A DNA stretch of 64,000 nt from a virus. The stretch spans positions 1 through 64,000 of IMG/VR virus record IMGVR_UViG_3300025314_000014; one strand, written 5' to 3'. Position 1 is the first letter of the stretch. Every line of letters begins with the position of its first letter. The notes under the pieces are model-generated. The model saw only the letters and a program-made list of their open reading frames with translations. It had not been told where the DNA came from and did not search any database. Position numbers and translations under genes: made by a program. Shown here in pieces: positions 1 to 19,240 of this stretch.

Positions 1-787
1 TCTCGCCCGTGACGTTCTTGCGGGCCTGGTAACATATCGTCCGTAGATTCAGCCCTGGGCGGTCGTCCTCAGCGTCTCCCTCGGCGCTACACCAGTCATC
101 GGCCACCACTCGCATACCGGTATCAGCACCCTTAGCGCCCGCAACCTTTCGGGAGTCAGGCAGGAGATGGCCGGAGGTGCGAACAGTGCCGGAGGTAACA
201 GCCGCTCCCGCCGTCCCGTCCACCCATAGCTTGCAGTTGTCTGCCCCACCTGCTGTGTTCAGGGCCAGGACGATATAGCGTACCGTCGTCCCTGCCGTGA
301 AGGTAGCACTGTTGCCACCCAGTTTAACATCGAAGGCACCAGTGTTGGTGAAACGCTGGATGGTGAATTGGAAGGTGGCGGGTGGGCCAGCCGAGACGAT
401 AGCGACACCTACACCCAGGTATTTGTCCCCAGTGGCCAGCGCCCAATGCTCGGTGCAACGGGCAGCAAGGTAATCATTGCCTACAGTCGGGGGTGTGTCA
501 AAGCCGATGATGGCCACGGGGACAACCCAGAATAACCAGTCCTTCGTGCGGGCGAACACGTGGCCGCAGCGGGCGTCAATGCCAAACGAGAAACCGCCAC
601 TGAGCATCCGATGAGCGAAGTAGCCGCTGCGCTTGGTGGACTTCTCAGGAGGGAAGCCCCCATGCCCATATACGCTCCAGTTGGGGCCTGTGATGAACGT
701 CTTTTCCTGAGTGGCATTGGCGGAATAGAGATAGCGGATGGGGCCATGCTCCCAGCCGCTACCTACGTGTAGCCAGCTACGGCTCAT
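1..787 (-). CDS. Tail protein, N-terminal 262 codons (cut by window start)
   Basis: The reading frame opens at an ATG (785-787) and stays open to base 1, so the C-terminus lies outside. It matches the N-terminal part of the complete 453-aa protein at 40697-42058 almost residue for residue, with no net length change. The middle has the character of a concanavalin/LamG-like jelly-roll (a run around TFQFTIQRFTNTGAFDVKL, then TVRYIVLALNTAG and CKLWVDG), so carbohydrate binding on the tail is a reasonable inference. It follows the 265-aa gene with a one-base gap. Appending 40697-41271 to this fragment restores an in-frame full-length gene, which is why I think the missing end is present elsewhere in the window. 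Confidence 0.8.
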   Translation of the reverse strand, partial: MSRSWLHVGSGWEHGPIRYLYSANATQEKTFITGPNWSVYGHGGFPPEKSTKRSGYFAHRMLSGGFSFGIDARCGHVFARTKDWLFWVVPVAIIGFDTPPTVGNDYLAARCTEHWALATGDKYLGVGVAIVSAGPPATFQFTIQRFTNTGAFDVKLGGNSATFTAGTTVRYIVLALNTAGGADNCKLWVDGTAGAAVTSGTVRTSGHLLPDSRKVAGAKGADTGMRVVADDWCSAEGDAEDDRPGLNLRTICYQARKNVTGE

Positions 788-788
788 C

Positions 789-1586
789 TTAGTACCCCCG
801 CCAATGCCAGCCTGGACTAAACCAGTCATAGGCCCCTGGCAGAGGGCGGGCAATCAGCGGCATGACAGAATAGACGAAACAGTGATGTGGCCCCTGTTGC
901 TGCAAGTCGGCCTGTGACTCCAGCCAGCGGGCTAGGGCATAGCGGCTAATCTCAAACAGTGCAGGTAGGTTCATAGCGTCCACAGGCACCAATGCACCAT
1001 CTGGCCAGGTAACAATCGCAATGTTGGGATTAGCAGGCGGTGTCCACAATGTTTTGCCAGACTGTAGAGCATCTACTAACTCCTCAAACCGCGCTGCCAG
1101 TCCTGGATGGGGCACGAATAGGGAACGGAACCCAGTCACAAGGCGGTTGCGGACTGTCGCCGTAGAGTTCGCCCACCATAGGGGCACAGACGTATCCCAA
1201 GATGCTGCAGGGTCACTTGTAAACACGAAGTCGCCCACGTCCCGAATCTTCTGTTTCTGGGCCGCAGTCAGGTTCAGAGTTGTAACGGCATCGCGGATGA
1301 GGCTTCCTACAGGCTGGTGGTGGAGGTAGCCTATGTCGGCAGGCCATAGGCTGCCAGCCAGATTTGCGTTCCCCCGCCAGTAACAACTATAGGTCTGGGC
1401 GGCGCGCCAATCAGCAGGGCCGGTGTTGCCTATGAAGTCCGTACCGCGAATGTCCCCCACAAAACGAGTGCCGAGGTCGAACGTGCAACCCTGAACCAGA
1501 GACTCGCGGGCATGACCGCCTGCCTGCACGGAGGCGTCGAGCATCTGCCCTCGGAGGTCGAGGTTGATTAGGGTGCGGCGGCTCAT
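789..1586 (-). CDS. Tail-associated protein, 265 aa (paralogue of 42060-42845)
   Basis: Function unknown. The first ~90 residues (DLRGQMLDAS, CTFDLGTRFVGDIRGTDF) have a loose pentapeptide-like rhythm, and the C-terminus ends FSPGWHWRGY. Both ends are nearly identical to the 261-aa protein of phage B, while residues ~100-190 differ strongly, a mosaic pattern typical of exchanged receptor-binding or tail-tip proteins. The start overlaps the stop of the upstream 749-aa gene by 4 bases, so the two are translationally coupled. Its place between a long fibre-like gene and a lectin-like gene supports a tail role. No enzyme motif is visible. Confidence 0.7.
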   Translation of the reverse strand: MSRRTLINLDLRGQMLDASVQAGGHARESLVQGCTFDLGTRFVGDIRGTDFIGNTGPADWRAAQTYSCYWRGNANLAGSLWPADIGYLHHQPVGSLIRDAVTTLNLTAAQKQKIRDVGDFVFTSDPAASWDTSVPLWWANSTATVRNRLVTGFRSLFVPHPGLAARFEELVDALQSGKTLWTPPANPNIAIVTWPDGALVPVDAMNLPALFEISRYALARWLESQADLQQQGPHHCFVYSVMPLIARPLPGAYDWFSPGWHWRGY

Positions 1587-3832
1587 GTTGTTAGCGGCCT
1601 CTTGGCTTCATAGATAGCTTGGACGTTCTTCCAGCCTGTGACTGTGCCACCGATGGTGATGCGGAGCGCCCCACGGGACTTAATGGTGGCGGCAGGAGCA
1701 GCATCTACAACCGTCTTGTTGCTCGCCGTGACCGTAATCGCCTTGATGGTCGTCCAGGTTCCAGCGGAGTCTGTGTCCTCGACGCCCGCACCCCCCGACT
1801 GATATTGCTCAAGGGTGATAGTCAGGGCCGTCCCACCCGCCGAGCCTGCGTGAACGACGATGCGAGCAAGCGCCTCATCTGAGCCAGGGCTGACAAGTAG
1901 CTGCTTCTGCGCTCCGGCTACTACGTCGGCGTCAATGGCGGCGTCGGGCAGGAAGACGTACTGGACGACTGAGAACTGCTGGGCCGTCACGCCCGTGCCG
2001 CCCTTGCTAATCTGAAGGGGAGACGCTTCAAGGGCGATAGCTCCGAGGCCCAACGTCGCACGTTGGGCGGCAGCATCGGCATCATCTATCAACGCTCTAC
2101 CCGCCGCTGTGCAGGCTATCTCCTCAACATCCCCTGGTCCACCTGTCGCTCGGCCCAGCACCTTGTCTGTGGCACTGACGTTCTGCATCTTGGCGTAGGT
2201 CACTTTGTCAGCGCCAATTGTGAGGACTCCCGCCTCGCTGACGGTAGCGTCACCAGAGTAGGCCGCCGTGGGGACAATATGCTTTGTGCCGACACCATCC
2301 CCTACTACTATCTTGTCATCATTGGTGTCCCAGACTATTGCAGCCTCAATCGTAGGCGCAGGGGAAGCCTCATTGGGCAGGACGAGGGTTCCAGGAGTAA
2401 TCGTGATAGGGGCCAACGCATTGCCATCGGAGGTATCGCTGTGGTTGTGTGACCGTCCATGACTACTCATGGCGAGCACGTTCCCTGCCGTACCAATGAG
2501 AATCACAAAGTCCTCTATGTCGTCCATCAGGATGTTGGCCTGCCCCACGCAGGAGATGTTGCCAATATCGTGCCGAATGTTGATTGTGTTAGCGTCGGAG
2601 TTGGGCTGGATGAAACAAATCTCGCCTACGCCAAGGCCTGTAACAGTGTCAAGGTTATCAAGCAAGGGAGGGACGGCCACCTCAACCTTATGGTAGGCGT
2701 TCGTGACAACAATAGCACCTGCGCCATCAATGACCAGCGGGTCGCTCGCACCCTGGGTTAGGGTCAGGCCACCTGTAGCGATACCTACACTGAATGTTTG
2801 CAGGGCACCCCAGATTTCGGCCTGGGCGAGCGCACCGTAGACAGTATGAGGGTCGGGAGCGGCAGCATGAGTAGCAATTTCCGCTGCTACCTCAGTATCT
2901 CTAGCTATAGTGGAATCTATCTTAGCACCAGGGAGAACACCAGTCACATCAGCAGAGGCAAGGTCAACAGTCTTAGCGGCTGCATCTTGGGCTCCACCTG
3001 TAATATGAGTAAAGCCTGTGCCTGTGGGGACGATGATGCCACCATAACCCGTCGCCGTGTAGCGTAGCTCAACCCCGAGGACGTGGCTATTATCGGCGTA
3101 GGTGTCCGCTGCGTCGCCGCCGAGACGGATGTAGTTGAACCGCCACACCTGGCCTATAGCACCAGGCGTGAACAAGGCAGGCCAGGTTATAACCTGGTGG
3201 GTCTGAGCAGGGTCGGCAGCCACCGCTACCGTCTGGTCGGAGTTTGTGCCAGTCTCCCCTGCATCGTCGCCTGCAGCTAATTCCGAGTAGTTGACCCGAT
3301 GATAGATGTCGCCTGTTCCAACAGCGGCCTTGCAGTAATGGAGAATGAGGTCCACAGCACCGGAACTCCAGTCAGGCGGCACCACCCAGTCAAACTGCAC
3401 GGCTCCTGTGGCGGCAGCGGGGAATCGCCATGTAGCCTGCTGGTTTGGATTCGTGCCCACCTGGGTCGAGGTAGCCCCGATGCCATGTAGCTCTTCCTTG
3501 TTGAACCAGACACGGTTGGTGAAAGTCCCGCCCCCACCGGTGTGACCGTGCAGAGCCGTTGGGCCACCGTCCGTCAGGTCAATCCAGTCCCCATCCGTCA
3601 GGGCAACGTACTGCGCTGCTACTTCGGCATCACGGGCTATAGCAGCAGGAATATCTGCATCTACCAAACCCCTAAAGTCTGGTATAGCAGAACCACCAGA
3701 TACAGGCCCTGCAAGAACTAAATTAGCAGCCTCAGCCTCATGAGCATGTGCAGCATTCCAATCCGATGGAAGGACTAGAGTAGTATCAGGGTCATCAGAC
3801 TTCGCACTAACCTTTTGGTGCTTTACGCTCAC
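1583..3832 (-). CDS. Long tail fibre / receptor-binding protein
   Basis: 749 aa. The N-terminus carries LPSDWNAAH, a motif common near the start of phage tail fibre and baseplate proteins. The body is low in Cys and Lys and rich in Ala, Gly, Thr and Asp, with repeated short modules (ADIPAAIARDAEVAA and a later variant IDSTIARDTEVAAEI) and His-Gly-His segments (ALHGHTGGGG, SHGRSHNHSDTSDGN) as in trimeric fibre shafts. LQISKGGTGVTAQQ near the C-terminus is the GGTG element of many fibres. A fibre that contacts the host is inferred from composition and position. Phage B has a different fibre (42842-44122) in the equivalent slot, so this is where the two phages diverge most. Base composition looks more GC-rich than the capsid genes upstream. 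Confidence 0.75.
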   Translation of the reverse strand: MSVKHQKVSAKSDDPDTTLVLPSDWNAAHAHEAEAANLVLAGPVSGGSAIPDFRGLVDADIPAAIARDAEVAAQYVALTDGDWIDLTDGGPTALHGHTGGGGTFTNRVWFNKEELHGIGATSTQVGTNPNQQATWRFPAAATGAVQFDWVVPPDWSSGAVDLILHYCKAAVGTGDIYHRVNYSELAAGDDAGETGTNSDQTVAVAADPAQTHQVITWPALFTPGAIGQVWRFNYIRLGGDAADTYADNSHVLGVELRYTATGYGGIIVPTGTGFTHITGGAQDAAAKTVDLASADVTGVLPGAKIDSTIARDTEVAAEIATHAAAPDPHTVYGALAQAEIWGALQTFSVGIATGGLTLTQGASDPLVIDGAGAIVVTNAYHKVEVAVPPLLDNLDTVTGLGVGEICFIQPNSDANTINIRHDIGNISCVGQANILMDDIEDFVILIGTAGNVLAMSSHGRSHNHSDTSDGNALAPITITPGTLVLPNEASPAPTIEAAIVWDTNDDKIVVGDGVGTKHIVPTAAYSGDATVSEAGVLTIGADKVTYAKMQNVSATDKVLGRATGGPGDVEEIACTAAGRALIDDADAAAQRATLGLGAIALEASPLQISKGGTGVTAQQFSVVQYVFLPDAAIDADVVAGAQKQLLVSPGSDEALARIVVHAGSAGGTALTITLEQYQSGGAGVEDTDSAGTWTTIKAITVTASNKTVVDAAPAATIKSRGALRITIGGTVTGWKNVQAIYEAKRPLTT

Positions 3833-3959
3833 GTTGGCGCCTCAATATATCCTCAGCAACTACACGTTTACGAGGTTTAGGGGGTCTAGGCCAGATTACG
3901 AACAAGGTACCAAGAAGGAGTAGGATGATAACCAGTCCTATTCCAAGCCCTAATAGCAT
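3807..3959 (-). CDS. Small single-pass membrane protein, 50 aa
   Basis: ATG at 3957-3959, TAG at 3807-3809. A hydrophobic helix (LLGLGIGLVIILLLLGTLFV) follows the start directly, then a Pro/Lys/Arg-rich tail (WPRPPKPRKRV ... RRQRERKAPKG), so N-out/C-in by the positive-inside rule. The start overlaps the stop of the upstream zinc-finger gene as TAATG, and the 3' end overlaps the fibre gene by 26 bases, both signs of a real coupled gene. A role in the envelope at lysis or entry is possible; nothing proves it. Confidence 0.65.
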   Translation of the reverse strand: MLLGLGIGLVIILLLLGTLFVIWPRPPKPRKRVVAEDILRRQRERKAPKG

Positions 3960-4117
3960 TAGTGGCCTAGTTTGGTCTTGTGTCCCTTGAGACTCTTGGC
4001 AGAAGTGAAGCTACGACCACAGGAGCACTCAAAACCCTCTCCAGCAGGAGGTGGCACAGTGTCCTTCATAGTGATATGGTCACCTACAGGCGCCCTATTA
4101 GGATTATCATACGGCAT
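3959..4117 (-). CDS. Mini-protein with C2H2-like zinc finger, 52 aa
   Basis: ATG at 4115-4117 abuts the stop of the preceding gene, and its own TAA overlaps the next ATG. The C-terminal half reads FECSCGRSFTSAKSLKGH followed by KTKLGH: Cys-x1-Cys, 12 residues, His-x5-His with the conserved aromatic and Leu positions of a C2H2 finger. The Cys pair is one residue closer than usual. Such fingers bind nucleic acid or protein. Location among structural genes suggests a virion or assembly role (inference). Confidence 0.6.
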   Translation of the reverse strand: MPYDNPNRAPVGDHITMKDTVPPPAGEGFECSCGRSFTSAKSLKGHKTKLGH

Positions 4118-4378
4118 TTACTTACTCCTTGTCTTAGGATGCTTTGCACCCTTCATTACCTTGCCACCTGGCATTCGATGAGTCTTGCCCTGGACTTGTG
4201 GATGAGTACCCATCACCTCACGAGTAGTCCGAGGCCGCATCCCATGCTCAACCCCATGTAGGAGTCTCACCTGAGCCTCAGCATTTGCCTTAGTTGTGCC
4301 TTTGCTGTGAACATTGCCTGTTTCCGTGTTAACCACAGTAAATCTGCCATCACCAACGGCCCTCACAGAGTAAGGCAT
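4118..4378 (-). CDS. Small basic protein, 86 aa
   Basis: I place the start at the ATG at 4376-4378 because AAGGAGG lies 5 bases upstream (4384-4390). A longer frame begins 17 codons earlier but would sit inside the hairpin at 4393-4450. The N-terminus (MPYSVRAVGDGRFTVVNTET) looks like a small beta domain and the C-terminus is strongly basic (Lys, Arg, His), suggesting nucleic acid contact. Family not recognised. Its ribosome site is separated from the upstream gene by the strong hairpin. Confidence 0.6.
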   Translation of the reverse strand: MPYSVRAVGDGRFTVVNTETGNVHSKGTTKANAEAQVRLLHGVEHGMRPRTTREVMGTHPQVQGKTHRMPGGKVMKGAKHPKTRSK

Positions 4379-4392
4379 TATAACCTCCTTAT

Positions 4393-4450
4393 GGGCAATA
4401 TTGGGGAGAGGGTTGCCCCGGACCTCCACGACCTCTCCCCTCTATTGCCC
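4393..4450 (-). other. Strong intergenic hairpin, no U-tract
   Basis: GGGCAATA-TT-GGGGAGAGG (4393-4411) pairs with CCTCTCCCC-TC-TATTGCCC (4432-4450): 17 paired bases around one 2x2 internal loop, with a 20-base apical loop. It lies between the stop of 4464-4889 and the ribosome site of 4118-4378. No T-run follows on the minus strand, so it is not a typical intrinsic terminator. An mRNA processing or stability element, or partial attenuation, is inferred. Confidence 0.75.
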
Positions 4451-4463
4451 TATAAGAATAGGC

Positions 4464-4889
4464 CTACGTGAGTTTGGCTAGACCTGACGCCAACTGCTCG
4501 TCTACGGCAGGTACACCCAGACTTACCATTGGCTCCAGGTATACTGTGGTATCATTGCACACAGGAGTTGTGCCTGAAACAGTATACTGCAACCTGACCT
4601 TGGTAATGGTCTGTCCAGATGCGGGTCTGGGAATGTAGACAGGCCGTGCTATCTCGATATTGTCATCGGCACCATCCAACTGAGGGAAGGAACCTATCTT
4701 GAAGTAGGTTGAACCTCCATCAATTGAGGCCTCGATGTCAAAATCGAATAGTGGGGTAGTGCCTGTGATGAGGGCATTGTTCAGCCTGGCTATGGCGAAG
4801 AATCCACCCTCAGTATCTACCGCTGTCTGCTGACCTGTGGCAGTAAGGTCTGCTGCGTTAGCCAGCCTCAGGTTAATATCTCTTGCCAC
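4464..4889 (-). CDS. Putative head decoration / minor structural protein, 141 aa
   Basis: A beta-rich protein (DFDIEASIDGGSTYFKIGSF, TITKVRLQYTVSG) with no enzyme motif, two genes downstream of the major capsid protein. This position and size fit a capsid decoration or head-completion protein, but the family is not recognised. The ATG lies 9 bases from the stop of the 99-aa gene, with a ribosome site (AGGAGG) just before it. Followed by the hairpin at 4393-4450, which may set its expression apart from the tail genes. Confidence 0.6.
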   Translation of the reverse strand: MARDINLRLANAADLTATGQQTAVDTEGGFFAIARLNNALITGTTPLFDFDIEASIDGGSTYFKIGSFPQLDGADDNIEIARPVYIPRPASGQTITKVRLQYTVSGTTPVCNDTTVYLEPMVSLGVPAVDEQLASGLAKLT

Positions 4890-4898
4890 TTGGACCTC

Positions 4899-5198
4899 CT
4901 ATGAATGAACTATTCTGACTGATGAGGAACGCTTTTCCTGCTCCTCAATTGGAAGGGGAGAGGCATGAGAGCCATCAGCCATAATGGAATCAGTATCACG
5001 GTCCTTCTCCAGCTTGTAGCCGCTGAGTATCCACCCTAGTTCTAAGTGGTAAAAGTCCCAACGGAGAGCCTGTGCCTCCTCTAAAGTCCTGGCAACAGGA
5101 CGCTCTGACTCCCACTCCTCACCTGCGGATACTCTTTTGACCTTCCGATACAGATTGCCATTACGCTCATAAACCTCTGGTAGCTCTCCCGATTCCAT
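4899..5198 (-). CDS. Unknown small protein, 99 aa, directly after capsid
   Basis: Charged and mainly helical by composition (KRVSAGEEWESERPVARTLEEAQ). No motif recognised. It starts 13 bases after the capsid stop with a good AGGAGG site and is in line with the head genes, so a head assembly or decoration role is inferred only from place. Confidence 0.6.
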   Translation of the reverse strand: MESGELPEVYERNGNLYRKVKRVSAGEEWESERPVARTLEEAQALRWDFYHLELGWILSGYKLEKDRDTDSIMADGSHASPLPIEEQEKRSSSVRIVHS

Positions 5199-5210
5199 AT
5201 TGTCCTCCTA

Positions 5211-6137
5211 CTATGCGTCAAGGATTCCGTAGAGCCTCGCAGCGCCACGAGGATGCTTGACTACGACACCACAGTACCACTCAATCCTACCCAAGTGGTA
5301 GGGGCCAGCCTGAACCTCTCCAAAGTCCTTGACTGAGGGGAGGCTCTTTGACTGGATACCGTGAACATGGTCAGAACTGAACCTAATACAGTAGACACTA
5401 GCTGTATCCGAGGTGCCGTCCCCAGGGTCCTCATCGTAGCCCAAGAAGGTGCTACCATCATCCTCACGCCGGACAATCCTAATGGGAGTACCAGCATAGG
5501 CTATCTGCTGCTTACCGAAAGCATCCTGGGTGAAGCTGATGAGGCTGGAACCAGTCTGAGCACGAACAAGGGCAGTCAGCTTACGGCGGACTGTAGGACT
5601 CATAAAGAGAACCTTATCGGCACCATCGCCTACAACTGCATCTAGGAGTGTATCCAGACTCGCAAGTGTCAGGGCACCTCCACCGCTGGCTTGCAGAATC
5701 TTCTGTCCTCCAATCAGGCGCTTACGGATACCATCGAAGGAGAATGCATCGACCACCGTGTCGCCTTCGAAGAAGGACTCCGAGAACTTAATTCCTGCTT
5801 GACGAGCCTTCATCCGGTACTTCTCAGCTTTGAGGTTGAGCAGGTTAGACATAACCTCGACCTCGAAGTTGTCAACCTTGACCTCACCACCGAGAATAAC
5901 CAGAGGCTCAAACTCTGGATTGATTACACCTGCGTCAGGCGTGTATGTGCCGCCAACACCACGGAAGGCCACTGTGCCTAGCGTTCGCTCCTTGTGGTAG
6001 CGGAACGCAGGGCCATTAATGGTCTTCATAGGTAGATATTCTAGGATTGGAGAGGTCTCTACGATAATCTTTGTGACTGCCCTCTCCAACTCATCCTGAC
6101 TATGCTTGGCAGCCTCTAGAAGTGTTATGTCCGCCAT
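5211..6137 (-). CDS. Major capsid protein, phage A
   Basis: 308 aa. Preceded by a scaffold-like gene and followed by small decoration-type genes. The N-terminal helix (TLLEAAKHSQDELERAVTKI), a mid-chain phrase SPTVRRKLTALVRAQTG after DKVLFM, and the run of beta-rich segments toward the C-terminus fit the HK97-type capsid fold (N-arm, P-domain, A-domain). It forms the shell of the head. No N-terminal delta domain or maturation protease is visible, so a separate scaffold is used, as the gene at 6147-7034 suggests. Not obviously similar in sequence to the 292-aa capsid of phage B. Confidence 0.8.
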   Translation of the reverse strand: MADITLLEAAKHSQDELERAVTKIIVETSPILEYLPMKTINGPAFRYHKERTLGTVAFRGVGGTYTPDAGVINPEFEPLVILGGEVKVDNFEVEVMSNLLNLKAEKYRMKARQAGIKFSESFFEGDTVVDAFSFDGIRKRLIGGQKILQASGGGALTLASLDTLLDAVVGDGADKVLFMSPTVRRKLTALVRAQTGSSLISFTQDAFGKQQIAYAGTPIRIVRREDDGSTFLGYDEDPGDGTSDTASVYCIRFSSDHVHGIQSKSLPSVKDFGEVQAGPYHLGRIEWYCGVVVKHPRGAARLYGILDA

Positions 6138-6146
6138 AGCTTCCTC

Positions 6147-7034
6147 CTATTTCTTCTCAGACTTCGACAATGCACTCTCTAGTAGCTCGTTAGAGGGTGT
6201 GCCTAGAAGGTCAGGTGTAGCGCCTGTCCTTCGACCTGATGTTAGTGGGGGCCTATCCTGCTCTAACTCTGCAAGCTGCTCCTGCTTGTGAGTCTCCCAC
6301 TTCTCGGCTAGTAGCTCCTGAGCGCGTGCTTCTACTCGGCTATCAATAATGGCCTGGCCAATAGCCTGACCCCAGGATACAAGGCCATCGACTCCCATAT
6401 GAGTAAAGTTCTCAGGTTTTAGCTCTGCCTTTACAACATCGTCTAAGCCTGAGTTCTCTAACATATGAGAGTATACAGCAACCTGGGCCGCATTGGAGTA
6501 GACCTCTGAGGCACGAGCAACAGCCTCTGGACTGAGACCACCACCAGATTGTTTACGCTCCTGGTATTGAGCATAGGCAGAGGCAGCCTTAGAGTCAGCC
6601 GAAATCTCCTCCCCAATTTCCTCTTGAGTCATTGAGGAGAAGTGCTCATCCCAGAGCGCGTGGTCAGCCCGTTCTCGCTCAGTTTGAGCAATAGCAGGCC
6701 GCTCACGTTCCAGGACTGCTGCTACCTGGGCTGCCCCTGCCCTATCCGCCCATGACTGGAGCATTGGACCTAATGCTGGATGTGCTAGAAGTTGCTGAAT
6801 GTTGAGGTCCTTGAGAGGGTCAGGAGCTTCCTCCTCCTCCCCTTTCTCCTCTTCTCCAGCCCCTCCCTCACCATCACCAGTTCCAGCACCGGTTAGGCCA
6901 GGCTTGCTCTCCTTCTCAGAAGTGCTATCACCTGCACCATCGGCACTTTTATCTCCAGCACCCTTGGATTGAGGGGGAGCTACGGTTCCCTCAATCTCAT
7001 GGGCTAAGGCGGCTATGTCAGGGTCAGTAGGCAT
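6147..7034 (-). CDS. Scaffold protein, phage A
   Basis: 295 aa, acidic and low-complexity at the N-terminus (GAGTGDGEGGAGEEEKGEEE), helical and Glu/Gln/Ala-rich in the middle, and basic near the end (GRRTGATPDLL ... SKSEKK). That layout and the slot immediately before the capsid gene are standard for scaffolds that guide procapsid assembly and then leave the head. Phage B has a comparable protein at 48829-49569. The ATG has a weak ribosome site (GGGGAGATAA). Confidence 0.75.
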   Translation of the reverse strand: MPTDPDIAALAHEIEGTVAPPQSKGAGDKSADGAGDSTSEKESKPGLTGAGTGDGEGGAGEEEKGEEEEAPDPLKDLNIQQLLAHPALGPMLQSWADRAGAAQVAAVLERERPAIAQTERERADHALWDEHFSSMTQEEIGEEISADSKAASAYAQYQERKQSGGGLSPEAVARASEVYSNAAQVAVYSHMLENSGLDDVVKAELKPENFTHMGVDGLVSWGQAIGQAIIDSRVEARAQELLAEKWETHKQEQLAELEQDRPPLTSGRRTGATPDLLGTPSNELLESALSKSEKK

Positions 7035-7056
7035 AATTTATCTCCCCAATCTGGTA

Positions 7057-7335
7057 TCACGTTACCATATCTGTCTGAACGTTGTCAATACCCATCTGGG
7101 GCGCTGCCCAGATACGATTTACGTTGGTCTGGCTCATCTCGAACAACTCCGCAACAGCAGCCACAGGTAAGATTCCTTCCAGAGCCTTTATCTTAGGATT
7201 ACGTTCTCGGTTTCTAATACCCCTTACCCCACCCTCAGACTCATATCGGCATTGTGCTAGAGGGCAGTTAAGGCAGCAGGATGATACTTCGCAGCCGCAG
7301 GAGCCGTGATGGTTGCAGGTAATTACGGGCTTCAT
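7057..7335 (-). CDS. Cys-rich helix-turn-helix protein, 92 aa
   Basis: The N-terminal ~30 residues hold nine cysteines and two histidines (CNHHGSCGCEVSSCCLNCPL and C29), a likely zinc site. A helix-turn-helix follows (LPVAAVAELFEMSQTNVNRI, residues ~56-75). Proteins with the CxxCPLxxC element plus an HTH occur in phages and bacteria and are expected to bind DNA. Its start overlaps the end of the 1268-aa gene by 4 bases. A regulator or packaging factor embedded in a virion operon is unusual; function unknown. Confidence 0.65.
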   Translation of the reverse strand: MKPVITCNHHGSCGCEVSSCCLNCPLAQCRYESEGGVRGIRNRERNPKIKALEGILPVAAVAELFEMSQTNVNRIWAAPQMGIDNVQTDMVT

Positions 7336-10300
7336 CGGGAGCGCCTCTTATGCCTACCCTGCATAAAGATAGGAGTTGCTCCAAACCATTTGGCAAGGGC
7401 AGCGTCGGCCTCTGGATTAGCAAACCTGTAACGCTCTTTGAGGTCACTGACTATGGATTCAACCTGACGAAGAACTGGCAAGTCAGAGGCTATAGATGCA
7501 GCCTGCTCAAGTGGATACCCCTGCTTGACGAGACCTTGGACTATTGAGAACACATAGTCATCGGTAGTCTCATAGGGGCTTAGTTCAGGTGAACCTTTCC
7601 TGATTGTATCCCAGACTGAATCCTCTAGCTCGAAGTAGGGTCTAAGAGTTCTAATTGCCTTCTTGTATTCCTTTGTGAGTGGAGTGTCTCGGAGGCCTGT
7701 GTTATCCTCAACATAACGTTTCTGCTCAGGCGTCCAGGAGTCCTCTAAGTCGTTCAGACTAACAGCCAGCTTCTCAGGGTCTATGTTACCCCAAGGTGTG
7801 CGGGCATTGATGAAGGCATCTCGTTGCTGTTGAAGTGCCAAGTCATTAGGATTATCAGGTACTTGAAGCCTACCCGCTGCCTCTGGATGGTCACGTTCCC
7901 ACTGGTCAAAGGCTCCTGCACGGGCAGCATTGATACGCTGGTACTCGGCTCTCCATTCAGGACCAGCCATACCTGCTGAGTCAAGTGCCTTCATCTGAGT
8001 CTCATAAGTATCAAGCAGAGTGGTGCGGGCCTCAAGCGCCTTGCCATATTCACTTGTGGCTTCTGGACGCTTCAATTCTGGCCTAGCCCTCTCAAGCTCA
8101 AACTTCTGCCTAGGCTCAAGGTCAGGCCAATTCTTCTGGAATGACTCCTGAGCGGCCTCATTACGACGGTTAGCAAGGTTCTCATAAGCTGTAAGAGGAG
8201 CAGCCTTTGTACCAAGTATTTGGAGAGCAGAGGCTCCAATCTCCTGTGGAGTCTTGGGAATACCCTCTTCACCTGCCTGTTGGAGAGAGATAGGCCCTAG
8301 CTGCTTTGTAAGCTGTCCAAGACTAACCAGAACCTCCTCAGCATTACCCCATTTGAGGTCAGCACCTTGGATTGTGTGGCCCTGAATGAGGTCATAAATG
8401 CGGGCAACTGCAGGAGAAGCCTTGGTACGTGCAATATAGCTAGTGCCTTGAATAGGATTCGTGGCCCCTATATAGATAGCCTTCACAAGTGAATCCCAGG
8501 GGCCAAAGACGCTAATATCACGGCCAAGTGCTCGTATCCTTAGGAAGTTAGAGCTAGAGGGATTGAAGTCAGTCTTGTTGCCCAGAACCTCATTGAGAGA
8601 GTACGTAAGGGCCGTACCCAAGATAACCAGCTTGGATATTGCCTTAGCTGCCTCATTCCCTCCTAGTGTCCTCTTCGTCAAGCCATCTGAAACTAGACCT
8701 ATCTGGGAGCGGAAGAATCTGGGGGCGAACAGCATTGCAGTCTCCAGGCTGGTAGCCTTCCCACCGGTGTAGCCTGTTGCAAGGTTAACCATACGGGCTA
8801 GGCCCTCTAGGTCTTTAGTTGATGCACCAGCCTTAGCCGCTGACTCAAACATCTCCAGACGCAGGCTATTCCCGAAACGGGTGAACCAAGTATTTGACAG
8901 TCTGGCAGCCTTACCAAATCCAGGAAGTTTCTCAGGCCAGCCTGAGAAGAGGAACTCACCCATATCGTTGCGGGCTGCGAAGTGACCTCCACTCTTGAGG
9001 AAGTTATCGAGTAGGCCACTAGCCTGGTGTGCTGCAATCCTCTCATCATAGGCAGTAGTAAAGGCATATCTAAGGGATTGTATATAGGCTTTAGGGTTAT
9101 GAGCAGCACCTATTAGGCCCTGGACACCCATAAAGGATGCATCAGCAGTCGCCATCAGGGGCCTGATAAGGTTGTTGAACCTGTTAACAGTTGACTCCAA
9201 GAGGCCAGAAGCCTTAGGACTGTCGAAGTCTAGGAGCCTTTCACCAACCTGCTCGGAATAGAACTTGCCTCGGAAACGTTTAGGAAACTCTCTTGTACCG
9301 CCAGCGGTTAGTTCCCGCATAATAGTAGCTCGACGGGCCTTAATAGGTTGGAGTTCAGCACGAGCAGTTCTAAGTAGGCCCCTAGCTTCCTCTTGGATTC
9401 CAGCTAGAGTAGCTTGGCGGCCAGCCTTCAGAGGTAGTCCAGAGGCCTCCTTTGCTCTCTTACCAAGGGCCACAAGGTCATTCTCAACAAGTTTTCCTGG
9501 CATACGGAAGGCCCATCTACTGCCTACACGTTTGGCAATGGTTGCCTCACGCTCTAGGGACTGTAGACGCCTAATCCTCTGTACTAGAGCGACTCCCTGC
9601 TTAAGTAGGTCTGGAGCCTGTTGGCCCAGTAACTCAGTAACACTAAACCCATAGGGCCTAAGTGCTGCCTCAAGCCATTTGTCTGCGACACGGTTATAAC
9701 CCTGAACTATACGGGCCTGTTGAGCATCAGCAAACCCCATATACTCCAGGCCAGCTTCAATACCTTCAGCCTTAGTAGAGACACTACGGGGCTTCTCGAA
9801 GGCCTGCTTAGCACCTAGCTTCTCCTTGACAACAGGGCCTACTGGGACTGTCTCCTCAAGCTGTGTCAAGGATTTTGGGTCAGTGATATTCACTGGGCGG
9901 CGGATTACCTGACGGTGAGTATAAATGCCACGAGGAGTAGGTATGTCATGGACTTTAAGGCCAGCAGCCTTTTCAGTTTGGCGGAGGATACTTAGCTGTT
10001 CATTGACCAGCTTGACTGCGCCTATCTGTTGGGGGTTGAGCTTGAAGTCCTTATAGGTCTCAATTACATCATCAATATAAGGCTGACCTGGGAGGTCTAA
10101 GACTCTCCCCTCATTGTTAAGCCTAAAAGTCTTGCTTACAGCCGCACGTATTAGGTCATTAGAGCGGGCAGCAGCATTGTGACCAAAGGCTCTAATCCTG
10201 CCATACTCATGGAGGAGCATTCCCATATCATCATCGATAAGACGGACTCCTCGACCTTCTAGCCAACGCGTAACTGAGCCTGGAAGGGAGTTGCCTATTA

Positions 10301-11138
10301 CCCTCCTACCAAACTGAGTAAGAGAGAGATTCTGACGGGCATCGATGATGACTTCCTCTGCTGTATGGACTCCAAACTTATCTAGGGTAGTTCCCCTCAT
10401 ACCCTGGATAATACGCTCCATCTCAGGGGATTCAGCAGCACCCCCAGAGATTGCAGGAAGGATATTCTTAAGGGCAGCCCTACTACCTATACCTGAGAAG
10501 AGTGCGTCTAGGACTGGAAGCCTAGCAGCAGTCCTAGCACCAATCTTGCCAACTGCTCCTGTCCCCCCCAAAATCAAGCCTGGATAATTGAGAGGGTCAA
10601 ACACAGTATAAGCTGTAGCCTCTGCTGCTATCTCATGCTCTAGCTCAGGCGAGATTGGTATTGGCCTCTTCCTAAATACATCAGAAACACCTGGGATACC
10701 GCTTTTCCCTAGGAGGCCTCCGCCTGCCCCTATATCAGCATACTTCTCTCCAAGTGGCCTACCAACCTCCCTGTAAGATAGGTCCATTAGCTGCTTCACT
10801 GGCCGGAGAACATCCCAGGGCTCTCTAACCTTACCTCGGAATACAGCAGAGGATACATCATCTACTGCACCCAAAACAGGAGAAGCAATCTTACCAAGGA
10901 TACCTCCACCGCCGCCTTTGGACTTAGTATCAGGCTGAATCTCATCCGCCTGGATACGAGTCATTAGAGGACCTTCTGGACTCCCTAGCTGGGGGAAGAG
11001 ATTAGGGTCAAGGCCACGGCGTGCCATCTCACCACGGGCCTGACGCCTAAATGCTATACGTTCAGCAGAGGCTCTGAAGGCCCTACCCTCACGCCTGGAC
11101 CTAACGTCCCTGGGCTCGGACTCCCACCAGTTAGGCAT
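7332..11138 (-). CDS. Giant virion protein, 1268 aa (putative internal/ejection protein)
   Basis: The largest gene of phage A, between portal-side genes and scaffold. It is helical, with a hydrophobic stretch near the C-terminal third (ISKLVILGTALTYSLNEVLG) and charged coiled regions after it. A segment around MATADASFMGVQGLIGAAHN matches in style and position WASADMSFIGLQTLPSLAVN of the 1676-aa protein of phage B, so the two appear homologous. Proteins of this size beside the portal in short-tailed phages are usually internal virion proteins ejected into the cell. No lysozyme, transglycosylase or polymerase motif is visible. The start has no overlap (2-base gap) with the upstream 104-aa gene. 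Confidence 0.7.
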   Translation of the reverse strand: MPNWWESEPRDVRSRREGRAFRASAERIAFRRQARGEMARRGLDPNLFPQLGSPEGPLMTRIQADEIQPDTKSKGGGGGILGKIASPVLGAVDDVSSAVFRGKVREPWDVLRPVKQLMDLSYREVGRPLGEKYADIGAGGGLLGKSGIPGVSDVFRKRPIPISPELEHEIAAEATAYTVFDPLNYPGLILGGTGAVGKIGARTAARLPVLDALFSGIGSRAALKNILPAISGGAAESPEMERIIQGMRGTTLDKFGVHTAEEVIIDARQNLSLTQFGRRVIGNSLPGSVTRWLEGRGVRLIDDDMGMLLHEYGRIRAFGHNAAARSNDLIRAAVSKTFRLNNEGRVLDLPGQPYIDDVIETYKDFKLNPQQIGAVKLVNEQLSILRQTEKAAGLKVHDIPTPRGIYTHRQVIRRPVNITDPKSLTQLEETVPVGPVVKEKLGAKQAFEKPRSVSTKAEGIEAGLEYMGFADAQQARIVQGYNRVADKWLEAALRPYGFSVTELLGQQAPDLLKQGVALVQRIRRLQSLEREATIAKRVGSRWAFRMPGKLVENDLVALGKRAKEASGLPLKAGRQATLAGIQEEARGLLRTARAELQPIKARRATIMRELTAGGTREFPKRFRGKFYSEQVGERLLDFDSPKASGLLESTVNRFNNLIRPLMATADASFMGVQGLIGAAHNPKAYIQSLRYAFTTAYDERIAAHQASGLLDNFLKSGGHFAARNDMGEFLFSGWPEKLPGFGKAARLSNTWFTRFGNSLRLEMFESAAKAGASTKDLEGLARMVNLATGYTGGKATSLETAMLFAPRFFRSQIGLVSDGLTKRTLGGNEAAKAISKLVILGTALTYSLNEVLGNKTDFNPSSSNFLRIRALGRDISVFGPWDSLVKAIYIGATNPIQGTSYIARTKASPAVARIYDLIQGHTIQGADLKWGNAEEVLVSLGQLTKQLGPISLQQAGEEGIPKTPQEIGASALQILGTKAAPLTAYENLANRRNEAAQESFQKNWPDLEPRQKFELERARPELKRPEATSEYGKALEARTTLLDTYETQMKALDSAGMAGPEWRAEYQRINAARAGAFDQWERDHPEAAGRLQVPDNPNDLALQQQRDAFINARTPWGNIDPEKLAVSLNDLEDSWTPEQKRYVEDNTGLRDTPLTKEYKKAIRTLRPYFELEDSVWDTIRKGSPELSPYETTDDYVFSIVQGLVKQGYPLEQAASIASDLPVLRQVESIVSDLKERYRFANPEADAALAKWFGATPIFMQGRHKRRSR

Positions 11139-11140
11139 AT

Positions 11141-11455
11141 CTATGAACTCAGGTATCCGCTATCCACTGACTTCCTGCGCCGCTGATTCTGCTGGCCGAA
11201 TGCTCTGCTCTGGGCAGTAGGACTAGCTTGAGAAGGTAGACTAAACTCCTGGATTATCCTCTTCATAACTGCCTGACCCTGAGGAGAGTTCTGGAAGTCA
11301 GTAGGTCTCATTAGGTCTCCCTGCTGGCCAAATGCCCTTGACTGGGCTGTAGAGCTAGCCTGGGAAGGCAGTCTCTTAGGTCTCTTAGCCGACTGCATAA
11401 ACTCCAAGGCTAGTCGAGTGTGCCTAGGGTCTACTGATATTTGCATATGTGGCAT
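11141..11455 (-). CDS. 104-aa virion-region protein with internal duplication
   Basis: Contains a 17-residue element twice, LPSQASSTAQSRAFGQQ and LPSQASPTAQSRAFGQQ, 43 residues apart, in a basic, Gln/Ser-rich chain. The DNA copies differ at many third positions, so the repeat is old and kept at protein level. ATG follows AGGAGG by 5 bases. Perhaps a flexible protein or a binding motif for the giant virion protein next door; family not recognised. Confidence 0.6.
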   Translation of the reverse strand: MPHMQISVDPRHTRLALEFMQSAKRPKRLPSQASSTAQSRAFGQQGDLMRPTDFQNSPQGQAVMKRIIQEFSLPSQASPTAQSRAFGQQNQRRRKSVDSGYLSS

Positions 11456-11464
11456 TGCAGCCTC

Positions 11465-12235
11465 CTAGAAGGAATACTGTGTCGCACCAGTGTTGACATA
11501 GGGAATAAAGCCTTCCTGCAATTTCTGGAAATAGTCCTCTGGATTAATACCGACCCGTGTACCTCCCTGTTGAACACCACCCTTGAGAAAGCTCGAAAGA
11601 ATAGCAAGGTCAGTCGGGTCAAAGGTTTGGAACTGGCTCCTACTAACAGATTGAGTAGTGGGAATGTTGACTCCAAACTGGCCTATACCAGCGGAGACTT
11701 CAGGAGCAGCACCTATAATGGAGTTGAACATAGCCTGGATGTCAGCATCAGACCTGACAGCCCCAGTTTGAGGGGCAAGCCCTTGCTCCTGCAGTTTTCT
11801 CTTATACAGTTCGTAGGCCACAAAGTCAGCAGGATTAGCGGACAGTTGCGCCTCGGTAGTGTAACGTTGCTGTTTGAGGTTCTCTCGGTCTATTGTAGCC
11901 TGGAGGTCGGTTGCATACTTCTGAGCCGCAATCAGTTTGTCCTGGAGATTCATATAGGACCCAGGGTCTATAAATAGGCTGCTAGGGTATCCGGTGGGTG
12001 CTGGTGCAGCAGGGGCTGGTGCTGCAGGGGCTGGAGCAGGTGCTGGTGCTGCTGCGCCTACAATCTGTCCTGGTCTCCAACCTCCAAGGAGTGCCTTCTG
12101 GAGAGCCACATTGCCTGCTGCCGACCCAACAGGAGCAGTAATCCCAATCTGTCCATAAAGAGTTTTAAGCTCTGCCATTCCTGGCCAGTTGCGGCCTACA
12201 AGTCTTGCATAAGTCTGATACGGGTACTCAGCCAC
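11465..12235 (-). CDS. Virion-region protein with Ala-Pro hinge, 256 aa
   Basis: I start it at GTG (12233-12235) because GGAGGTG lies 5 bases upstream, inside the end of the previous gene; an ATG 13 codons earlier lacks a site. Residues ~65-85 are an Ala-Pro linker (repeats of APAPAPAAPAP), separating a short N-terminal domain from a helical, Gln-rich C-terminal domain. Ala-Pro hinges are common in virion proteins. Sits between portal and giant gene; probably part of the ejectosome or a tail-portal accessory (inference). Confidence 0.6.
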   Translation of the reverse strand: MAEYPYQTYARLVGRNWPGMAELKTLYGQIGITAPVGSAAGNVALQKALLGGWRPGQIVGAAAPAPAPAPAAPAPAAPAPTGYPSSLFIDPGSYMNLQDKLIAAQKYATDLQATIDRENLKQQRYTTEAQLSANPADFVAYELYKRKLQEQGLAPQTGAVRSDADIQAMFNSIIGAAPEVSAGIGQFGVNIPTTQSVSRSQFQTFDPTDLAILSSFLKGGVQQGGTRVGINPEDYFQKLQEGFIPYVNTGATQYSF

Positions 12236-12237
12236 AG

Positions 12238-12429
12238 TTACACCTCCGACCCTACAGGAGCACACATAGCGCACAGAAGAACAGGCATGGAAGTCTGTAT
12301 CCAGTTGATAGGATTCTTAACCTGTGGATATATTTGCTCTTGAGGTATAAATACAACCTGCGTTAGGCCTCTCACAGCCTGAGAATATTCCTTCCAATGT
12401 TGACATCCTGGACAGAAAAAGATTTGCAT
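12238..12429 (-). CDS. Zinc-ribbon mini-protein, 63 aa
   Basis: Two CxxC knuckles, FFCPGCQHW at the N-terminus and LLCAMCAPV near the C-terminus, predict a zinc ribbon. ATG touches the stop of the upstream gene and its stop lies two bases before the next start, so it is tightly coupled. Function unknown. Confidence 0.6.
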   Translation of the reverse strand: MQIFFCPGCQHWKEYSQAVRGLTQVVFIPQEQIYPQVKNPINWIQTSMPVLLCAMCAPVGSEV

Positions 12430-13209
12430 CTAGAGGAACCTCTTGGCTAAGTCAATAGCCTGCTGAATCTGGCTTGTATCAGGGACTCCTACAGCATAAG
12501 GACTGGGAGTGGTTTGTATTAGGTTGAGGGCGATTGCAAACGGGTCATAGGCAATTGGCTTGGACTCTCGCGGCTGGAGGCCGAGACTTGTTGCTAGGCC
12601 CCCAGGCTCAAAACCTGTAGAGTACTTGGAGCCTTCTGGGATTGTGAACTGCTGAATACCCTCGAACCGTTCACCTGCCTCTGAGATGGCATCCAGTTGC
12701 CTATTGAACTCCTGCATAGCTTGGTCTGAGCGGAGACGGCGAGCCTCAACCTCAGTACCAAGGCCCTCAATGACTGCACTCAGGTAGTTGGACATTCGTT
12801 GGTTAGCAGCAGAGGCGGCAGCGGCGGCACTAGAGGCCCCTCCATCCCCAGAATCACCCTCTGTCAGATTCCTATATGCAGCTACATCCTTATAGTACGA
12901 GGAGTAGTCACGACCTATAACCTTACCATATTCGTCCAGTAGGTCATAGGCAGGGTCATTGATATTAGGTATAGGAATATCTCCAGGCCCATACCTAGTA
13001 GTAGTACCAGTGGGTTGACTTACTCCAGGCTCAGTGAATGGAAAGGTTGCAGGAGCGGAGGTACTTGCCCATATAGCCTTACCAGAGGAGTCATATCCAA
13101 TAATCTTCTTGGGAGTAATGGGTGGAGGTGTCACAGGGTAAGCAGGCCTAGGAGTAGGTGTTGGAGTTGGCCCTGGAGTTAGCCTCGGTAAAGGTTTAGG
13201 TTGTGTCAT
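12430..13209 (-). CDS. Proline-rich virion-region protein, 259 aa
   Basis: The first 35 residues are Pro/Thr repeats (TPGPTPTPTPRPAYPVTPPP), followed by a linker, an Ala-rich patch and a helical region (~residues 135-175, GTEVEARRLRSDQAMQEFN). It occupies the same place, two genes after the portal, as the 263-aa Gln-rich protein of phage B (54740-55531), suggesting an equivalent virion role. It overlaps the 101-aa gene by 4 bases. Confidence 0.6.
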   Translation of the reverse strand: MTQPKPLPRLTPGPTPTPTPRPAYPVTPPPITPKKIIGYDSSGKAIWASTSAPATFPFTEPGVSQPTGTTTRYGPGDIPIPNINDPAYDLLDEYGKVIGRDYSSYYKDVAAYRNLTEGDSGDGGASSAAAAASAANQRMSNYLSAVIEGLGTEVEARRLRSDQAMQEFNRQLDAISEAGERFEGIQQFTIPEGSKYSTGFEPGGLATSLGLQPRESKPIAYDPFAIALNLIQTTPSPYAVGVPDTSQIQQAIDLAKRFL

Positions 13210-13511
13210 GCCATACCTCGATTCACAGATAGCCTTGTAATGTGAGTAACGAAGTCCTGAATGTCCTTCTTAACTAGCTCCTCTTGGTCAGGCATTCCAC
13301 GGTATTTGTTAGCGAGCCGTTGAGCAACCTCTTGCCAGTCCTCAGGAGTCATTGTAAGAAACTTCTCTAGCTGCTCATCAGGAGAAAGAGGAACTGAACC
13401 ATAGGTGTATTCGGCCTCTAGCTCCTTGATAAGCCGCTGCCTCATATCGAAGTACCACTCCTCTACCTCAGTCCTAAGCTTATCAAGTCGAGGGCCAGAG
13501 AGAATAGGCAT
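13206..13511 (-). CDS. Small helical protein after portal, 101 aa
   Basis: Highly charged and helical (RLDKLRTEVEEWYFDMRQRL; DEQLEKFL). It overlaps the portal stop by one base (ATG within TAATG). Phage B has a similar-sized charged helical protein in the same slot (55531-55821). Probably a portal-associated or head-completion factor; not recognised as a family. Confidence 0.6.
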   Translation of the reverse strand: MPILSGPRLDKLRTEVEEWYFDMRQRLIKELEAEYTYGSVPLSPDEQLEKFLTMTPEDWQEVAQRLANKYRGMPDQEELVKKDIQDFVTHITRLSVNRGMA

Positions 13512-15364
13512 TATGCCCTTTCCCTCATTCCAGGTGGAAACGCTCCTGCTGCCTCCGGCGGTTGTCTCGACTGACCCGCACGAGTGTAACCTCCAGCAGC
13601 CTGAGCAGCCTCACCAGTTGGAGAACGACCATTACCCTTCAAGGCTGCCATTAGCTCTTGGACGCCTCCTGGACCTCCTCTTGGAGCCAAGGAGTTGCTA
13701 CTAATAGGCTGACCATCTGGACCTACAAGGCCAGCCTCAGGAGGTGGAAGTATTCCCACTGTCTCCAAGACATCCTTATAGAGACTAGGCTTGAGAAGCT
13801 CCTGTAGGTCCTCCTTCATCCTCTCGTATTCAATCTCCTCTGGCTGCTCCAATCTCATCCCACTCTCAAGCACTATCCGACGAGGGATATGGCCGCGAGC
13901 GTGCATCCTGTCATAGAACTGACCCTCAGCGATGATGTTCTGTGGGAGCATAGGGTCAACTTCGACTGTAATAACAGCAGGAAACTCTTTAATATCCTTA
14001 GGAGATAGAGAAAGGTCATCAATCCAAATTTCCTGACGGGCACTCCTAACAAGCTCTGACTCTAACCACCTTACTAACTCTGCAAGGGCTAGTTCATAGG
14101 AGTCCACAAGATATTGGAATTGGCTACGAGCCATCAGGTATAGAGAGTTGTCACGGTATCCAGAGCCTACTGCCCCAGGTGGAACACCCTTGAATATAGG
14201 TGAAACTCCGTGCTGACCCATGAGCCGAAGCATTAGCTCAATAAAAGGAAGAGCAGCAAAGGCATTCTCAGCACCTGCAAATGGGTCTTGAATCTTAGCA
14301 CCAGCAGGAAGTGCCTCAGCCTGGTCACCCTTGAACTTCCAGGTTCGAGGAACGAGGTTATTATCCTCTCCCGTCTCGAAACCCTCAGTGGAGCCCTCTG
14401 GAAGCTCTATGGTGAGGCGCTTGCGAACAACAATCTCCACTGCCTCAGCAACCCTTGTAAGAGCACGATTAATAATGGGCTCATTATGGCGGAATATCTC
14501 TGCTACAGAGATGCCATACTTGTCAGGGTCACGGCTAACCGTAGTCCGGCCTATTGCAACAAAGTAGTGAACAGAGGGGTCTGCCTCCTCATACATCAGT
14601 TTCCCATTAATGTATATCTGATACCACTCCTTAGACCAGTATTCAGTTACTAAGGTCAGAGTCTCGGTGCTTGTACCATAGGGAAGAGGTTGTATCTCCT
14701 CAATTGGCATACCTGGGGTAGCAGAGACAATAGCACTAGAAGAGGGAGTCCCAAAGGCAGCCTCAGTCTCTCTCTTTGGACGCCAAGAGTGCTCCAAAGC
14801 CTCTACAATCTCATCTCCTGGACCGAGCCGATAGAAGAACGTAAGAGGGTGAACTGGGACAACCTTGAATGGAGGCCCCCAGAAACGCTTTAGTGCTCTC
14901 TGGCGGTCATTGAACTCAGCATCAGTCTCCTTCACACCGTTGGTAATAAGACGTTTCCTATCAGTCTTAGGCCAAGGGTAGAAGGCAGCCTTAAGAATAC
15001 CCATACCAAGACCAGCCTGACCGTCCACAGTCTCATTGAGCATCCGGCCTATTTTCTTGAGATAAGCGTTCCAGAACTTCTCACGCTTGGAGGAATTAGG
15101 CTGGGCAGTTGCAGAAGTCCTCAATGGAGCTACTCTAACCTGTGGAAGATTAGTTGTAAGAGATGCTTTAACATTCTCGATTAGCTCAGATGCGGCACCA
15201 ATACGTATTTCAAGCCCTGATGGACGCTCCTCATCAGAGAGCTTTACAGGGTCCTCTAGATGCCTAACAAGCTCAATCTCAGAGATACGCTTATGGAGAC
15301 CCTCAAGATTCCTCTTTAGCTCATAGAGCAGCTTGGTTATATAGGTAGAATCAGGAGCTTCCAT
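13511..15364 (-). CDS. Portal protein, phage A
   Basis: 617 aa, the usual portal size, directly downstream of TerL. The N-terminal part (GLEIRIGAASELIENVKASL then LPQVRV) and the long helical stem/wing regions fit a dodecameric portal ring, through which DNA enters and leaves the head and to which terminase and tail bind. The C-terminal 60 residues are Gly/Pro-rich and probably disordered. The 5' end overlaps the small membrane gene by 14 bases. Resemblance to the phage B portal is weak but visible in the first 100 residues. Confidence 0.8.
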   Translation of the reverse strand: MEAPDSTYITKLLYELKRNLEGLHKRISEIELVRHLEDPVKLSDEERPSGLEIRIGAASELIENVKASLTTNLPQVRVAPLRTSATAQPNSSKREKFWNAYLKKIGRMLNETVDGQAGLGMGILKAAFYPWPKTDRKRLITNGVKETDAEFNDRQRALKRFWGPPFKVVPVHPLTFFYRLGPGDEIVEALEHSWRPKRETEAAFGTPSSSAIVSATPGMPIEEIQPLPYGTSTETLTLVTEYWSKEWYQIYINGKLMYEEADPSVHYFVAIGRTTVSRDPDKYGISVAEIFRHNEPIINRALTRVAEAVEIVVRKRLTIELPEGSTEGFETGEDNNLVPRTWKFKGDQAEALPAGAKIQDPFAGAENAFAALPFIELMLRLMGQHGVSPIFKGVPPGAVGSGYRDNSLYLMARSQFQYLVDSYELALAELVRWLESELVRSARQEIWIDDLSLSPKDIKEFPAVITVEVDPMLPQNIIAEGQFYDRMHARGHIPRRIVLESGMRLEQPEEIEYERMKEDLQELLKPSLYKDVLETVGILPPPEAGLVGPDGQPISSNSLAPRGGPGGVQELMAALKGNGRSPTGEAAQAAGGYTRAGQSRQPPEAAGAFPPGMRERA

Positions 15365-15536
15365 TAGAACCTCGAATAGTCACAAAGTAAAAGTAACCAA
15401 GGAAGAGATACGCAAAGAAGGCTAGTCCTAAGAGAGGGACAACCTGTAGAGTTCCAAAAAAGAGAATCATTCCTATCATCCAGCAGAGATTTCTTAGTCC
15501 TAAGCTCCTGTGCCACCACCGAGGTTGTATCTTCAC
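15351..15536 (-). CDS. Small membrane protein between TerL and portal, 61 aa
   Basis: GTG start (15534-15536) with AAAGGG about 10 bases before it. After a basic N-terminus (IQPRWWHRSLGLRN) come two hydrophobic segments (LCWMIGMILFFGTLQVV and LLGLAFFAYLFLGYFYFV). It lies four bases after the TerL stop and overlaps the portal gene by 14 bases. A membrane protein amid packaging genes is odd; superinfection exclusion or holin-like activity is possible but unproved. Confidence 0.55.
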   Translation of the reverse strand: MKIQPRWWHRSLGLRNLCWMIGMILFFGTLQVVPLLGLAFFAYLFLGYFYFVTIRGSNGSS

Positions 15537-15539
15537 AGC

Positions 15540-16961: not shown

Positions 16962-17631
16962 CAGACTCCACCACAGAAGTCTCGATTAGTCCTTGCTCCT
17001 GTGCAAACTTTCCATTGGAGGTGAACCTATCCAGCAGCCTCCTAGCAGCAACCCTCTTAGCCTCCTCAGATTCTACTTCCCTTCCGTCAACAATAAACAC
17101 ACCCTTCTCTACGTGAATAGGAGCACGTTCACCATGCTCAGGCTCCAATGCCTTCTCTAATGCGAGTAGGTCCGATGGCCCATAAAGCCTACGAATAACT
17201 TTGAGGTAGTCATACTCAGTCTCCGTAAGAGAGTTGAAGTTATAGGCCGCCCTGTATAGAATCTTAAAGTCACGGCGGAGAGCCAACCTAAAGTTCCTCA
17301 TGAACTCCATACGCAGGATGTCTCTACTGAGAGAGTGCTGAAGGAAGCTGAGCTTAGGCCCCTCTAGCTCCTTGAACTCAGGGTCGTCACGTCTCCACTT
17401 GTTTACCGTATGTTGAGAAACCTCGGCCATAGTGCAGGCCTCACGGACTGAGAACCCACAGGCACGATAGCTCAAATAGGATGCCTTCCGAGGGTGATTA
17501 GATGCTGGCAATCTAGCTTGAAGCATCTCCTCCAGGTCATTCGGCTCTATGTCGAGAGTGCCGGACTCAACCTGTTCAACCTCGTGTAGCTCCTGCTTGG
17601 GACCTATGACAAAGATTTGTTCAGATACCAT
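16951..17631 (-). CDS. terS: Terminase small subunit, phage A
   Basis: I set the start at ATG 17629-17631 (226 aa) because GTGAGG precedes it and a TATAAT box ends 16 bases upstream; the open frame extends 44 codons further into the promoter, which cannot be transcribed from it. A helix-turn-helix (SVREACTMAEVSQHTVNKWR) lies near residue 70, as in TerS proteins that recognise packaging sites. A long helical part and an acidic tail follow. It overlaps TerL by 11 bases. It is the first gene of the rightmost minus-strand operon of phage A. Confidence 0.75.
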   Translation of the reverse strand: MVSEQIFVIGPKQELHEVEQVESGTLDIEPNDLEEMLQARLPASNHPRKASYLSYRACGFSVREACTMAEVSQHTVNKWRRDDPEFKELEGPKLSFLQHSLSRDILRMEFMRNFRLALRRDFKILYRAAYNFNSLTETEYDYLKVIRRLYGPSDLLALEKALEPEHGERAPIHVEKGVFIVDGREVESEEAKRVAARRLLDRFTSNGKFAQEQGLIETSVVESDGS

Positions 17632-17647
17632 TTGATTCCTCACCATC

Positions 17648-17676
17648 ATTATAACATAAGACAATAAGCTTGTCAA
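17648..17676 (-). promoter_or_regulatory. Sigma70-type promoter for phage A packaging/head operon
   Basis: TTGACA (17671-17676, minus strand), exactly 17 bases, TATAAT (17648-17653). Transcription would begin about ten bases before the TerS ATG, giving a very short leader. Both hexamers are consensus. Confidence 0.85.
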
Positions 17677-17752
17677 GTGCACCGAGGGTAATTTGAGTAT
17701 ATAGTTTGGTATAGTTGTGTGTTTGAGTATATATAAGATTTGCACTTGACAA
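17670..17752. repeat. 12-bp inverted repeat overlapping both divergent -35 boxes
   Basis: TTGTCAAGTGCA (17670-17681) and TGCACTTGACAA (17741-17752) are perfect inverted copies, each covering a -35 hexamer of the two divergent promoters. An operator for one regulator that controls both arms is inferred. Confidence 0.55.
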
Positions 17753-17775
17753 AAACACACCACACTTGCTATAAT
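17746..17775 (+). promoter_or_regulatory. Sigma70-type early promoter, phage A rightward
   Basis: TTGACA (17746-17751), 18-base spacer, TATAAT (17770-17775), followed by AAGGAGAG and the ATG at 17803. It drives the long plus-strand early operon. Confidence 0.8.
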
Positions 17776-17802
17776 AATAGTGAATAACCAATAAGGAGAG
17801 CT

Positions 17803-19136: not shown

Positions 19137-19240
19137 AACAGAATTAGAACGCATATCCCATCTTCTATATTACACACATTACTATAGTAAGGGTGTCACC
19201 CCAAGTCTGGGATTCACCAACTGATAAGAAGATTATACAC

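Follow-up and report, generated by a model that had tools for sequence, protein, structure and literature searches.

The window, which is the whole stretch of DNA analysed (64,000 nucleotides), covers bases 1-64000 of the IMG/VR virus record IMGVR_UViG_3300025314_000014, which is 68,370 bp in length. Base 1 is the true start of the record and hence a true contig end. Two sets of phage genes are present, referred to here as phage A, which includes a segment X, and phage B.

1..65, contig start, a stretch of shared block 1 that the record carries twice (again at 41272-41336, letter for letter)
1..31163, phage A-specific segment, with early genes (PHROGs matches; composition)
2..787, minus strand, the shared tail gene in its A version, truncated at the contig end so that just the N-terminal part remains (95 % identical in DNA to 41272-42058)
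789..1586, minus strand, gene 2 of the A tail cassette (66 % amino acid identity to 42060-42845)
1583..3832, minus strand, gene 3 of the A tail cassette, fibre-like by position and composition, without detectable similarity to 42842-44122 of B
5211-6137, major capsid gene (MCP) of A
7332-11138, probable tape measure of A
15540-16961, TerL of A (PHROGs)
16951-17763, TerS of A (PHROGs)
31164..31375, shared block 2, 212 bp without a difference between A+X and the B circle described below (B+Y)
31376..40745, segment X of phage A (31164-40745 with block 2), collinear with the A genes in a complete relative (G005)
31569-32354, methyltransferase of X
33153-34943, PolA of X
35536-36477, GH25 and LysM endolysin of X
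36585-40306, tail genes of X
40697..42058, minus strand, the record's version of the shared tail gene (453 aa), a hybrid of the B N-terminal part and the last codons from X
40746..41336, shared block 1 (591 bp), inside which the record crosses from X (phage A) to phage B
41337..64000, phage B-specific segment, continuing to record base 68282 (99.99 % identity to other B contigs; PHROGs matches)
42060-44122, tail cassette of B
49655-54685, probable tape measure of B
58213-59619, TerL of B (PHROGs)
59603-60031, TerS of B (PHROGs)
Beyond the window end, helicase of B

TerL, TerS, and probable tape-measure genes number two each in the record, but only a single PolA and a single endolysin were found, and X carries both. 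There is no tRNA in the window. Gene 1583-3832 has no match in PHROGs or Pfam, and megablast of 1-12000 against named phages returned nothing. For the shared tail gene, no relative came from tblastn against named phages or from the PDB, and its AlphaFold model is uninformative (pLDDT 30).

Repeated sequence at the contig ends

As the earlier note had reported, bases 1-65 are identical to 41272-41336 by sequence comparison, the two copies first differ at base 66, and 1-787 aligns with 41272-42058 free of indels. The identity over this alignment is 95 %. The codon differences between these two stretches are 22 synonymous and 15 non-synonymous. By BLASTN, similarity to the right-hand copy reaches over 1-982 (91 %), with a further match at 1296-1518 (88 %); judged from this alignment, the repeat cannot be due to chance (E = 0). 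It also holds that the 3′ part of the tail gene is present once in the record, at 40697-41271, and that the gene reads through without a break, for 453 aa from the methionine at 787, once 41271 is joined to 1.

At the other end of the record, the last 88 bp (68283-68370) match 31157-31244, the final 81 bp of them exactly. Both ends of the contig therefore lie inside sequence that recurs within it. The exact overlaps differ between the two ends, at 65 and 81 bp, and do not indicate a single k-mer length. A first model, drawn from the match of the record end to 31157-31244, had a 10 kb block common to A and B (31157-41336); this was dropped because the B contigs leave at 40745 for unrelated DNA.

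Phages A and B outside this record

Contigs of phage B were found by searching IMG/VR with the shared tail gene and the right-hand terminase. These are IMGVR_UViG_3300002503_000014 (G001; 43,221 bp), 3300002120_000017 (G002; 34,813 bp), IMGVR_UViG_3300025167_000031 (G003), 3300025289_000147 (G004), and 3300025030_000441 (G009). Both G001 and G002 match record 40746-68370 at 99.99 %, with 2 mismatches over 27,625 positions between G001 and the record. At 40745 both depart from the record into DNA that is absent from it, termed Y here, which is also present in G003, G004, and G009. The order in G003 and G009 is Y, block 2, B, such that the far side of Y leads into the sequence of 31157-31375 and then follows the record from base 68370 downward; G004 ends within the block 2 sequence. 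Overlaps of 100 % between G001 and G009 on both sides close phage B+Y as a circle of 47,414 bp. Phage B is incomplete in the record, with ~19.5-19.8 kb missing from it and located in G001 and G009. The genes of Y include a family-A polymerase, a ribonucleotide reductase, a Cas4-like exonuclease, and an endolysin, supplying the second polymerase and endolysin, which are B's own.

Other features were observed in the B contigs. The B+Y family-A DNA polymerase is fused to an N-terminal uracil-DNA-glycosylase domain (Pfam PF03167, E 1.5e-20; IMGVR_UViG_3300025289_000147 16470-18590). A 78 bp tandem duplication (97 %) at 63624-63779 lies in a cysteine-rich B ORF starting at 63111 and is present in the other B contigs too, and record 64490-66046 encodes a cysteine-rich 518 aa phage protein with a weak match to a dual-specificity or tyrosine phosphatase domain. 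G003 follows B at 99.5 % from 68370 to 55530 (G003 base 32891) and then at ≤82 % in the structural genes; the break at window 55530 is either another mosaic boundary or a second chimera.

The first base of unbroken identity with the B contigs is 40746, and 40746-41271 thus belongs to phage B too; A and B diverge again at 66/41337. The string shared at the fork, put at about 65 bases in the earlier note, is in fact 591 bp, the 65 bp being only the part that is present twice in the record. No finer placement of the crossing point is possible within block 1 (40746-41336). Since the assembler could not tell the A and B copies apart, the unseen copy of 40746-41271 in phage A is presumably identical to that of B. 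The true phage B tail gene has a different C-terminus from the hybrid in the record. Block 2 lies in a small gene and forms the link from A into X and from B into Y; its first 81 bp recur at the right end of the record (68290-68370), and G001 terminates exactly at 31375, the final identical base of the block. For the record and the five B-related contigs, 7 out of 12 contig ends fall inside the two shared blocks (803 bp in total, 1.7 % of the B genome), for which the binomial chance with random ends is ~3e-10, a figure that overstates the independence of the ends, as some of the other assemblies may be re-assemblies of the same reads. Such a pile-up of ends is expected if, in the assembly graph, each block has two edges entering it and two leaving.

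For phage A, the comparison is with G005 (IMGVR_UViG_3300025313_000042), a complete circular genome of 42,825 bp with a 126 bp end repeat. Relatives of the A genes at 25977-30094 and of the X genes at 31569-34943 (methyltransferase and polymerase) are in one collinear run in G005, and the relative of the A terminase is 58 % identical. As G005 keeps the A and X relatives collinear, the passage from A to X in the record is natural. It had been proposed that phage A closes into a circle, and this is supported, though indirectly, by the restored 453 aa gene and by the collinearity of A and X in G005. Because A+X is known only from IMGVR_UViG_3300025314_000014, its closure rests on inference and synteny; A+X is probably a circle of 41,271 bp closed from 41271 to 1, of a size near that of G005. 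No close relative of the A TerL, gene 1583-3832, or gene 39167-40306 was found in IMG/VR, leaving no independent A contig, and in genome_contigs, searched for a host, the A-type TerL led to neither a relative nor a host.

Proteins of G005 at 2738-7128 match those of phage B at 45224-48813 (29-48 % amino acid identity), although the G005 terminase and replication genes are A-related. On these protein matches, modules have been exchanged between the A and B lineages.

The tetranucleotide signature along the record switches at ~41 kb (40 to 42.5 kb). Differences are 0.166-0.179 among segments A1, A2, and X, and 0.135-0.176 among B1, B2, Y1, and Y2 (0.135-0.160 for Y versus B segments), compared to 0.227-0.341 between the A/X and B/Y groups. 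The sole other deviation in signature is the first 4 kb of A, which resembles Y more closely than it does the remainder of A, probably due to the GC-rich tail cassette.

Origin of the join

The record is best explained, with a probability of about 0.9, as two tailed phages spliced by the assembler within a shared tail gene, an artefact rather than a biological structure, in which A+X and B+Y are phages mostly unrelated in DNA that lived in the same sample. The earlier suggestion, in which an assembly fork within a gene common to both phages produced the join, is thus upheld: B occurs without A elsewhere, B continues into other DNA at 40745, the signature switches, and A and X are collinear in G005. 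Identical sequence runs across the join (591 bp) and the composition changes at it (~41 kb). Different continuations at the join are seen elsewhere for B (G001, G002, G003, and G009), and for A+X only via the relative G005. With two shared blocks, the graph would have two crossings, with A and B on one side and X and Y on the other. The assembler would have gone through A, block 2, X, and block 1, and taken the exit to B where A should have followed. The true continuation of A would thereby have been left over as the free end at base 1, and the walk would have stopped upon re-entering block 2. We infer that the wrong exit was chosen by the software, rather than the contig being a rare real recombinant.

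Such a recombinant, the next explanation to be considered, would be a phage B+X (~37 kb) co-occurring with A, of which the contig shows a true X-B junction. A viable B+X would combine the head and tail of B with module X of A (replication, lysis, and distal tail), with crossovers in the shared tail gene and block 2. Mosaic exchange between these lineages clearly occurred, the identical block, at 591 bp, has sufficient length for recombination, the hybrid gene keeps an open frame over its full length, and such a phage would own one polymerase and one endolysin, both from X. However, the contigs that cross block 1 from B all go to Y (G001 and G002), with the X-B junction in 0 out of 2, and a pattern search gave no further block 1 contigs. 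The sole link of X to B is this contig, whose ends resemble graph forks. The break in signature at the join is as in a chimera, yet a recent recombinant would break likewise. On balance, a real B+X phage is unlikely.

Less probable again, and very doubtful, is a physical union of the two phages, either as an A-B cointegrate (a figure-eight dimer of the two phage circles) or as tandem prophages. The ends of the record do sit in the same two shared blocks as its interior, as they would in a linearized cointegrate, but elsewhere B closes with Y and not with A/X. Tandem prophages require host flanks and attachment sites, none of which were found, and there was no host DNA or integrase among the genes scanned, which were a subset of the ORFs.

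The idea of a single phage of 68 kb or more that carries the tail gene in duplicate, for which the single contig and the same overall orientation of both structural modules could be cited, is in practice refuted by G001, G002, G003, and G009, in which the right-hand set occurs without the left. Two full packaging and structural sets and two oligonucleotide signatures also speak against it.

Probable tail exchange, consequences for the record, and comparison with known systems

The three-gene tail cassette (1-3832 and 40697-44122) is 58-62 % GC in both phages, compared to ~50 % elsewhere. Between A and B, gene 1 is 95-100 % identical, gene 2 has 66 % protein identity, and gene 3 is unrelated. 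It has the look of a tail or receptor-binding cassette passed on horizontally, and the most likely source of the two identical blocks and of this GC-rich cassette is a recent exchange between phages with a common habitat and possibly a common host. Mosaic tailed phages swap tail genes. Here likewise, a compositionally distinct tail cassette is common to otherwise different phages; the tail-gene exchange is ordinary phage mosaicism, and no unusual feature was seen.

Read literally, the record describes a 68 kb phage that has two packaging systems and its tail gene in duplicate, and analyses of size, taxonomy, and host would be misled by it. It should be split into 1-41271, which is phage A+X and probably a closed genome, and 40746-68370, which is part of phage B. 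The signs of the chimera that do show are the two TerL genes with a single polymerase and the end sequences that recur inside the contig.

CheckV uses k-mer frequency to look for repeated genomes (PMC8116208). The k-mer frequency of this record is 1.008, compared to values well above 1 for a concatemer or a repeated single genome; the check is blind to this chimera because the two genomes differ. As with the over-long IMG/VR contigs that carry repeated genome copies (PMC8116208), the contig exceeds the real genome, but here it is not one genome that recurs.

Chimeric contigs can arise from repeats, and mosaic phage genomes have unitigs in common (PMC10563150). The chimeric contigs of short-read metagenomes (PMC10563150) have in common with this record two genomes, identical blocks, ends inside those blocks, and a wrong exit. 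In contrast to those chimeras, the partners here are mostly unrelated phages, rather than strains of one, and the missing segment Y is recoverable from other assemblies.
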